Under the pieces are notes generated by a model. The model ran no database searches and was not told the DNA's origin. It saw nothing but the letters and a program-made list of their open reading frames with translations. A stretch of 64,000 bases of DNA from Mesaphorura yosii (lineage: Eukaryota; Arthropoda; Collembola; Poduromorpha; Tullbergiidae), in NCBI GenBank assembly GCA_009869945.1, contig WIXG01000128.1, positions 62,001 through 126,000 on the forward strand, read 5' to 3'. Each line of letters begins with the position of its first letter. The first letter of the stretch is position 1. The translations under genes were made by a program, and so were the position numbers. Positions 47,201-49,382 of this stretch are shown here, one piece after another.

Positions 47201-49382
47201 CGAGACTTCTTCCGACTGAACCCGCTCTGGGAGTTCCCCACCCTCGCCTCAACCTGCACCTACTTCCGAGGCTGCCCCATCAACAAGCTGGACATCGCCA
47301 TCGCCTACGACCTGCCTGAACTGCTCGGACGCTACCGCCGACAGAGAGAAAGCATCGGAGTCGCCGGAGGCGTACCAGCCGCACCCAGCGCCAGCTCGGA
47401 ACCTACGAAACCGGGCAAACCAACGCCAACAGCAGCATCTCCGGCAGCCGCAACGGCTCCAAAGCAAGAGAAAGAGAAGCCCGTGAAGAAGCTGACGAAA
47501 GAGGAGCAGGCGAAGCTGAAGGCGGAGGAGGCTCAGCAAAAAGCCGAGGAGCAGGAACTGAAGAAGTGGAACAAATGGTGGATAGATGGAATTCCTAATT
47601 TAATAATTTAATAGTTATTAATAATCATTTTATAATTTCTTAGGTGGAAAGATGGGATCCCGCACCCAGTCAGGTCGGGAGACACAATCAAGCCTGTGGA
47701 GACAAAGAACAGGTGGTGGAAGGATGGCCAGCCAAACCCGGTCCGATCGGGAGACGCAAAGAAGTCAGCGGAGCCAACGAAGAATAAATGGTGGAAAGAT
47801 GGGGTACCCCAGCGGTAGACTGGCACTGGCCCTCAAATGATTACGATTTAGGCCCCTTTTTCAAACAATTTTAGACTTGAAGATGTTGGCTCAAACCTGG
47901 AGATTACGTACGATATAAAATACTTCACTGATAAGACAAGAAACTACCAATCAAGTTCGGTTGCAGAATAGAACGACGTAGTGTATTGTTACAAATCCAA
48001 TACTGATGTGATTTTTGAGTCTAGTCAGGAAATTTTGATTGTATGCTTGCATAAGAACGAAGATTATTTAAAGTGTTCAACGTATTCTATTCTAATTCAA
48101 ATTCTGAATCGTCTTGTGGCATGGCATGCGATAATCTAAGTTCATCGTGGTCTAAAAACTGTCGTTCGTCCGCTGTCGTCGTAGATTAGTAAAGTGCCTT
48201 GAAGGACTTTGGTGCCTTAGTGAATATGCCTTAGCCTTAGTTTACATGTTAAAGCATTTAAACCGTTAAATAAGGTATTTAAGAGGAAAAGATGCATTAA
48301 TTAAATAAAAATGTGAAGCCTAAGCGTTTATGGGTAGTCAAAGAGCTGAAGCGAGGCGTATCTAAAATGTACTTACATTTGGAGTGACTTCCTTCAACCA
48401 CTCGTCGGCTTGTTCGTCAAAGTCAATCTTACAGGCTTGTCGCAAATCGTTGGCTGCCTCAATCCAGTGACCCAAAAGACTAAGGAAATTCAACATAAAT
48501 TGGATTAAAGTTTATCTGTAACGGACTTCGACTTGAAAGTTCGGATTTCATCTTACCGGTGAGCTCGTCCTCTAAACTTGTAAGAAATGGCCGAATCCGG
48601 GTTAATTTGTAATGCACGATTGCAATCTTTGATGCAAGCGTTCGGCTTGTTCTGTTTCATAATGACATTTGACATAATATCATAATGCTAGCTTGTGATA
48701 AATTCCAATTAAGCTCCAGGCTGCTCACCAATTTCAGAAATGCTTGTCCACGTTTGCCAAACAAAAGCGCAGAACCTCCGTTCAATTTAATGGCTTCCGT
48801 GTACTTTTCAATGCATTCATCATATTTTCCTTCACTGAATAAGCCAACAGCTTCGATTTTGTAGCCATTTGACTTTTCCATCGCTTCTTCAGTCACGTCC
48901 GCATCCGAATTTCCCATTTCCTGATCCAGATTAACAGGATCTGGCTCTGTAAAGAAGGATTTCTTGAATTAAAGTAATCAACTCAATGATACTGAAGAGG
49001 GTTTGTTTGTGCCTACCGATTACACCGTCCGTGTCAAGCTCCGGATATGGCTCTGGAGGCTCCTCCTCGACTTCTTCAAACTCAACGTCAGCCGTTGTTG
49101 GCGGAGGACTAGCGGCAGTGGGTTTTGTATCGCCTGAACCGGCGCCGGCAGCAGTGGTCGGCTTAGACGGCGGAATCTGGCACACGAAACAAAATCAAAT
49201 GTTGCCTTGAGAAACTAAACTGGCTATTTCTGGTTAAAGCTCACCTTTGCCCCGAGCGATACGAGGTAGTCCTTCAAGAATTCCAGTTCCGGTCTGTCGA
49301 GGATTGCCGGGTTGGTTTTGAGCAAGGTAACAAAACCCTTGATGTTGGCAATCAGCTCTGGCGGAATAGTCATGTCAGCCAT
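41208..49382 (-). CDS. ST13: Hsc70-interacting protein Hip (ST13)
   Basis: Cytosolic cochaperone that binds the ATPase domain of Hsc70/Hsp70 and stabilises its ADP state. Seven exons (49245-49382, 49017-49176, 48729-48946, 48557-48651, 48377-48479, 41577-41817, 41208-41509), 418 residues; human ST13 has 369. In order: an N-terminal dimerisation domain ([12 protein letters not shown]); an acidic linker ([16 protein letters not shown]); three TPR units including [18 protein letters not shown] and [13 protein letters not shown]; a charged Arg/Glu coiled helix; a Gly-Gly-Met-Pro-rich stretch; and the Sti1-type DP domain with SDPEV and FADISQNP, all recognisable. Here the GGMP repeats follow the DP domain instead of preceding it, and the protein ends VTDDLD. 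The fifth intron (41818-48376, 6559 bases) holds the sarcalumenin-like gene on the opposite strand. All exon joins keep phase. Confidence 0.95.
41818..43209. other. ST13 intron, part before the nested gene
   Basis: ST13 intron sequence that must also contain the promoter of the nested gene starting at 43210. No other gene or repeat seen. Confidence 0.45.
43210..47818 (+). CDS. Srl: Sarcalumenin-like EHD-family GTPase with Asp-rich N-terminal region
   Basis: Luminal calcium-buffering glycoprotein of the sarcoplasmic/endoplasmic reticulum. Eleven exons (43210-43279, 44009-44344, 44413-44619, 44708-44908, 44991-45866, 45937-46109, 46343-46519, 46598-46728, 46800-47064, 47126-47577, 47644-47818), 1020 residues. 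Exon 1 encodes a signal peptide ([19 protein letters not shown]). Exons 2-5 encode runs of Asp ended by Ser/Glu and separated by Lys-rich spacers, a low-affinity calcium-binding design. From about residue 460 follows the EHD/dynamin-like GTPase: P-loop [10 protein letters not shown]3 region LVEIPGIL (Glu in place of the usual Asp), [15 protein letters not shown], and G4 NKAD. The C-terminus carries an Ala/Lys/Glu helix and WWKDG repeats. Match to vertebrate sarcalumenin is strong over the GTPase part. The whole gene lies inside an ST13 intron. Intron 2 uses an apparent GC donor. Confidence 0.92.
43280..44008 (+). other. First intron of the sarcalumenin-like gene
   Basis: 729 bases between the signal-peptide exon and the first acidic exon. 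Small frames here have no recognisable product. It may hold regulatory sequence. Confidence 0.6.
47644..47818 (+). repeat. WWKDG coding repeats at the sarcalumenin C-terminus
   Basis: The last exon encodes three copies of a 24-25 residue unit beginning (N-K/R)WWKDGxP, of which the first two continue with PVRSGD. The third is cut by the stop codon. A fourth, degenerate copy of the unit's first ~19 bases lies at 47578-47596, at the start of the preceding intron. Confidence 0.85.
47819..48376. other. ST13 intron, part after the nested gene
   Basis: Contains the 3' UTR of the nested gene, with an AATAAA on the plus strand at 48304-48309, about 70 bases before ST13 exon 5. Confidence 0.45.
48304..48309 (+). 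terminator. Candidate polyadenylation signal, sarcalumenin-like gene
   Basis: AATAAA 486 bases after the stop at 47818, still inside the ST13 intron. Confidence 0.35.

Follow-up and report, generated by a model that had tools for sequence, protein, structure and literature searches.

The origin of new spliceosomal introns is poorly documented, and the source of the new sequence is seldom recognisable. In the sections of the Daphnia pulex report drawn on here (PMC4202315), the mean length of 90 new introns is 77.7 bp and their AT content 78.0%, vs. 55.0% in the adjacent exons, about 93% of them carry in-frame stops and 27 of the 90 are of length 3n; significant internal direct repeats were described in 55 of the 90, and staggered breaks were held responsible for 33 direct repeats, 4-12 bp long, in which the end of an exon recurs at the opposite end of the intron. 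For Drosophila, the part of PMC2891723 considered here proposes that a duplicated segment of length 3n, if retained, may be a temporary or permanent alternative, and the idea of a retained duplicate taken up below is therefore not new. At the locus described here the source is partly recognisable, being a neighbouring coding box, and a single species comparison could thus tell an insertion that came with a duplication from a repeat unit that has decayed.

The locus lies in a 64,000-nucleotide stretch of Mesaphorura yosii contig WIXG01000128.1 (positions 62,001 to 126,000), hereafter the window. The coding span of the host gene runs on the plus strand (43210..47818), and its spliced frame is open from the ATG at 43210 to the stop at 47818 in a gene model with 10 introns whose borders were picked by eye. 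The GTPase of this gene matched EHD4 and EHD2 chains with E values of 7.2e-41 to 1.4e-38, placing an EHD-type GTPase domain in the protein, and matched the Pfam families MMR_HSR1 and Dynamin_N weakly. Read by eye, the predicted protein comprises, in order, a signal-peptide-like N-terminus, many acidic stretches, the GTPase and a lysine-rich tail with terminal WWKDG boxes. From this layout we take the gene to be sarcalumenin-like, a name given by no database match; sarcalumenin has a signal peptide and acidic repeats and lacks an EH domain. Judged by its predicted product, the host gene appears to encode an EHD/sarcalumenin-type GTPase. When the genome (93,006,257 bases in 1127 contigs) was searched with the GTPase, six of seven matches were the host gene and the seventh was a separate locus, C70:64876-65079, a second EHD-like GTPase exon that is 42% identical to the host over 67 residues and belongs perhaps to the ordinary EHD gene. 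Marker families gave 66 Chitin_bind_4 matches in this genome, vs. a match in 0 of 14 controls, which suggests an arthropod; a COX1 probe found nothing here although 8 of the 14 controls responded to it, and a CAHS-like probe likewise found nothing, a result that is uninformative on its own. Relatives of the host gene were sought in GTDB genomes and IMG/VR, and none was confirmed. The gene is seemingly nested, on the opposite strand, within a ~6.5-kb intron (48375 to 41821, minus) of a gene which we presume to be ST13/Hip-like and which was judged by eye from TPR-like and other exons in window positions 41200-49400. The acidic region holds a GC-AG intron at 44345-44412 (AAG|GCAAGT), in which CACA(A)GGCAAG is repeated across both splice sites, with 8 of 19 bases matching in strict register. 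Literature searches pairing sarcalumenin with intron retention found nothing, those pairing it with tardigrade found a single table entry, and a search for 'WWKDG' found only an occurrence unrelated by its title.

The last coding intron (47578..47643, plus strand) is 66 nt long, just as the original prediction had it, and is of the GT-AG type. The exon after it (47644-47818) yields, once spliced, the three predicted WWKDG boxes, the first of them completed across the junction: box 1, with its exonic part at 47644..47662; box 2, NRWWKDGQP, at 47708..47734; and box 3, NKWWKDGVP, at 47783..47809, followed by QR and the stop at 47816-47818. A further copy, box 0 (47570..47596), reads NKWWIDGIP in frame across the donor and groups, together with its left flank, with boxes 2 and 3 (family D2). 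Box 0 has a left flank like those of boxes 2 and 3, while box 1 lacks an NKW of its own in genomic DNA and would receive it from the upstream exon via splicing. Five GT sites lie in 47300-47599, two of which (47566 and 47578) are in frame with the boxes, in a check that covered GT donors; only 47578 restores NKWW on the pattern of boxes 2 and 3, rebuilding an NKWWKDG that resembles both later boxes. Because the boxes enter the frame only by splicing and the donor at 47578 rebuilds NKWW, we infer splicing at 47577/47644, and the intron is very probably spliced. The alternative in-phase GT donor (47566..47567), 12 nt upstream, would shorten the first box in the tail by four residues. With the intron retained, the frame stays open through the donor and ends four residues past NKWWIDGIP at a TAA (47609..47611), in agreement with the predicted in-frame WWIDGIP and stop. 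Spliced and retained alike, the putative protein ends consist of WWxDGxP, then 2 or 4 residues and a stop. RNA structure near the junction is ordinary (z -0.95). The focal donor ranks fifth lowest among the gene's ten and 104 of 388 in the whole ab initio set, a set that is unreliable given its flat length distribution and its exact borders for only two introns of the host gene, and it scores below every one of 18 introns that had been selected for their strong sites, a small set which is itself unreliable; the donor score is no clear mark of anything, and neither donor model was counted as evidence.

The start of the intron (GTGGATAGATGGAATTCCT) and the start of the last exon (GTGGAAAGATGGGATCCCG) match at 15 of 19 bases (79%), a figure that held on recounting, while the nine remaining introns of the model gave 3-8 of 19 in the same comparison. 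Among 128,853 GT...AG pairs spaced 45-120 nt apart in 264 kb, both strands included, two reach 15 of 19, the focal intron being one of them; in a control in which GA replaced AG, 4 of 144,152 pairs did so. These counts put the background at ~1.6-2.8 per 100,000 pairs and indicate no enrichment of AG at repeats of this kind. We regard the similarity between the intron start and the last exon as real, as that of two box copies. It is also short, as evidenced by: 1) windows of 12 nt along the match, of which those within the first 18 nt score 11 and 10 and the following ones 5, 4, 4, 1, 4, 6, 3 and 2; and 2) the 20 nt before the donor and the 20 nt before the acceptor, which share 4 matches. The homology between intron and exon ends after about 19 nt. 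As had been predicted, the GT of the donor and the GT on the acceptor side are corresponding bases of two box copies, and a local duplication was therefore probably involved. The junctions read ATG|GT at the donor and TAG|GT at the acceptor, so that the AGGT of the classical model is found at the acceptor only. Being short, AT-rich and stop-bearing, with a direct repeat of the exon end, the focal intron has features of young introns and may be fairly young; the four differences in 19 nt are not suggestive of a very recent exact copy.

The remainder of the intron is of another kind. Its 47-nt tail (47597..47643), an AT-rich filler that contains stop codons and the acceptor, is 91% AT, a richness equalled in 21 of 263,013 windows of the same length, its own place included, which fall into four separate blocks. 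By comparison, the two full repeat units are 44% AT, the nine other introns of the gene 51-63% and the genome sample 57%; for the whole focal intron the value is 0.82 (82% AT) vs. 0.51-0.63 in the other nine. Shuffled sequences aligned to the repeat units and to the exon upstream as well as the tail did (P 0.30, 0.87, 0.99 and 1.0), and no trace of the repeat linker was found in it. Decay of a whole unit into the intron, as originally proposed, is disfavoured by this composition, since neutral drift in this genome should bring a copy towards ~57% AT and not 91%. Exact repeats inside the filler are in line with its composition (P 0.13 and 0.22), and the whole intron gives P 0.035 and 0.19. Positions 47602-47637 form an imperfect palindrome with overlapping 20-nt arms that are 75% complementary, and the same stretch holds three imperfect 17-nt repeats.

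Searches of the species' own genome for further copies of the locus gave two matches with the tail peptide and one with the intron plus flanks (a DNA search that skips simple words), all at the host gene, and a 27-nt core of the filler has a single genomic occurrence when as many as 3 mismatches are allowed. An introner was considered and ruled out by copy number, the intron with its flanks and the 27-nt core each having one genomic place. WWKDG-like DNA is also present at C38, C321 and C393, where the rest of the tail is absent from the context on both strands. Of 36 AT-rich blocks in the 264 kb, the focal one has the best flanking repeat (12 of 14; among 3000 random positions, 11 do as well), and the remaining 35, at 7-11 of 14, fall inside the random range, so that we see no class of AT-rich insertions with flanking repeats. 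An intron in a chitin-synthase-like reading frame of L036 (about 2130-2230, by eye) is AT-rich as well, which means that such introns exist elsewhere in the genome; it is absent from the 12 best flanking repeats listed.

The original prediction had called the intronic copy degenerate. In coding terms it is not: of the 21 bases compared between boxes 0 and 1, 4 differ, three of these being third codon positions, and the outcome is a single changed residue among seven and no stop. Boxes 1, 2 and 3 differ pairwise at 3-6 bases, 2-4 of these at third positions, with one residue change each, and box 0 differs from box 2 and from box 3 by two residues each. In simulations that took box 1 as the ancestor, kept the exon copy under constraint and let both copies mutate equally, an outcome with no stop and no more than one residue change arose in 5-6% of neutral runs, in 31-32% of those at omega 0.3 and in 54-55% of those at omega 0.1; the neutral figure from box 1 is 3-4% if the intron copy took all the changes. 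By itself the excess at third positions was not significant, with P 0.10 when box 1 is the starting point and P 0.20-0.21 when box 3 is. A neutral figure below 1% from box 3 was discarded as no test, given that boxes 0 and 3 are already two residues apart. The simulations favour coding constraint on box 0 by ~6-10 to 1, which is modest evidence drawn from four differences only with criteria picked post hoc, and such constraint hints at a translated unspliced isoform. We give the translation of an unspliced short-tail isoform an even chance.

Our preferred explanation, held tentatively and at a little under an even chance, is that a local insertion duplicated the exon end and left a usable short C-terminus if the intron is not spliced. 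The intron would then join two dissimilar pieces: 19 nt copied from where the next exon begins (the WxDGIP end of a box) and ~47 nt of AT-rich filler. We surmise that the insertion, as in staggered-break repair, duplicated a short exon end, that the donor was drawn from the GT within TGGTGG (Trp-Trp) and that the filler provided the acceptor and the stop codons. As the cut falls at the same base in both copies, the spliced mRNA would carry a perfect NKWWKDG and a three-box tail, and the unspliced one a complete NKWWIDGIP. Because this is the last coding intron, the unspliced message would escape junction-dependent decay and would probably be a minor short-tail isoform; no junction is known downstream, although the untranslated part may hold introns. 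If this is true, the locus would show how a new intron can do little harm, leaving a complete protein end whether it is spliced or not. For insertion as the origin of the focal intron, taken by itself, we find the chances evenly balanced. Against it, the present repeat, 19 nt with 79% identity, exceeds the 4-12 bp repeats of Daphnia in both length and divergence, the exact repeats of the filler are no more than its composition leads one to expect, and the spacing of the boxes, taken up below, favours an ancestral fourth unit. A bolder postulate, which we doubt, is that the intron was born as a switch, one duplication-insertion having given both a removable intron and an alternative end that selection has since kept. 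Since the copied piece is a C-terminal motif, a single event could on this postulate yield an intron together with a complete alternative protein end, and spliced and unspliced messages would each terminate with the WWxDGxP box intact. An argument against a retained form that persists comes from Drosophila, where novel introns are retained less than conserved ones (2.6% vs. 5.3%) in the part of PMC2809761 considered here.

The explanation first offered for this intron was an array of at least four boxes in which splicing came to remove the stretch between corresponding bases of boxes 0 and 1, and the excised unit then decayed. Boxes 0 and 1 are indeed 66 nt apart and in frame, not far from the length of the full units (72 and 75 nt); both junctions lie at corresponding bases; and the codon spanning the acceptor is AGG where the boxes have TGG, so that a single T-to-A change would have made the acceptor. 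Introns in coding repeats also have precedents in fission yeast (PMC3629103) and Drosophila (PMC2891723), as far as the parts drawn on here go. The sequence left of the acceptor, however, has neither homology to the linker nor an NKW, and decay would have to account for a tail at 91% AT, vs. 44% in the units and 57% in the genome, next to 19 nt that are still 79% identical. We consider this explanation rather unlikely. What stands of the tandem-duplication origin are the corresponding junctions and the features of a young intron; what does not is its extent, as only ~19 of the 66 nt are homologous. The shared WWxDGxP ending, with 2 or 4 residues and a stop after it, also fits a history in which box 0 was an older, regular C-terminus with an AT-rich 3' untranslated part, the array spread downstream and splicing was added later, leaving two ends. 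The coding-like differences in box 0 agree with this and the filler could be former untranslated sequence, but the first bases after 47818 are, by eye, not similarly AT-rich, and we judge this history unlikely.

The two remaining alternatives deny that the intron is new or that it is an intron. Gene conversion between near copies is common, and an old intron might have come by its box-like first bases through conversion from box 1, through splicing constraint or by chance; the AT-rich intron in L036 is in keeping with this alternative. A match of 15 of 19 by chance has a frequency of ~2 per 100,000 pairs, however, and donor constraint spans about six bases, not 19, which makes an old intron quite improbable. 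Finally, the box exon could be out of use or the product of an assembly error, with no splicing at all, as the locus is a single copy in one assembly; the in-frame boxes of the exon differ mainly at third positions, like coding sequence, and they are joined to the gene by splicing only, so that we hold this to be the least credible of all and very improbable.

The likenesses to known systems are partial in each case, as far as the portions of the reports drawn on here allow. Like the break-repair neointrons of Daphnia (PMC4202315), the focal intron has an exon-end repeat at the opposite end of the intron and is AT-rich relative to other introns, but its repeat is 19 nt at 79% and not 4-12 bp; moreover, the Daphnia neointrons are known from comparison of individuals and species, and this one from the sequence of one assembly. 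Introners (PMC9860276) resemble it in that one splice site may come from the duplicated target and the other from the insert; their flanking repeats, however, are 3-9 bp, and no second genomic copy was found here. The introns of fission yeast SPOG_01682 and SOCG_00815, which lie within arrays of 24-nt coding tandem repeats (PMC3629103), are similarly placed inside a coding-repeat array, but they comprise repeat units, whereas here only the first 19 nt do so. With the introns of the Rogers model, ATP2A1 and the potato RdRp (PMC4974935), the focal intron shares junctions at corresponding bases and a protein left unchanged by splicing; tandem-duplication introns of this AGGT type are marked by AGGT at both junctions and exon homology over the length of the intron, whereas here AGGT is present at the acceptor only and ~19 of 66 nt are duplicated. 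In the novel introns of Drosophila that arose by tandem duplication (PMC2891723; Bap170, PMC2809761), as here, a coding copy flanks the intron on both sides, but the retained form at the present locus would stop inside the filler and give the protein a new C-terminus.
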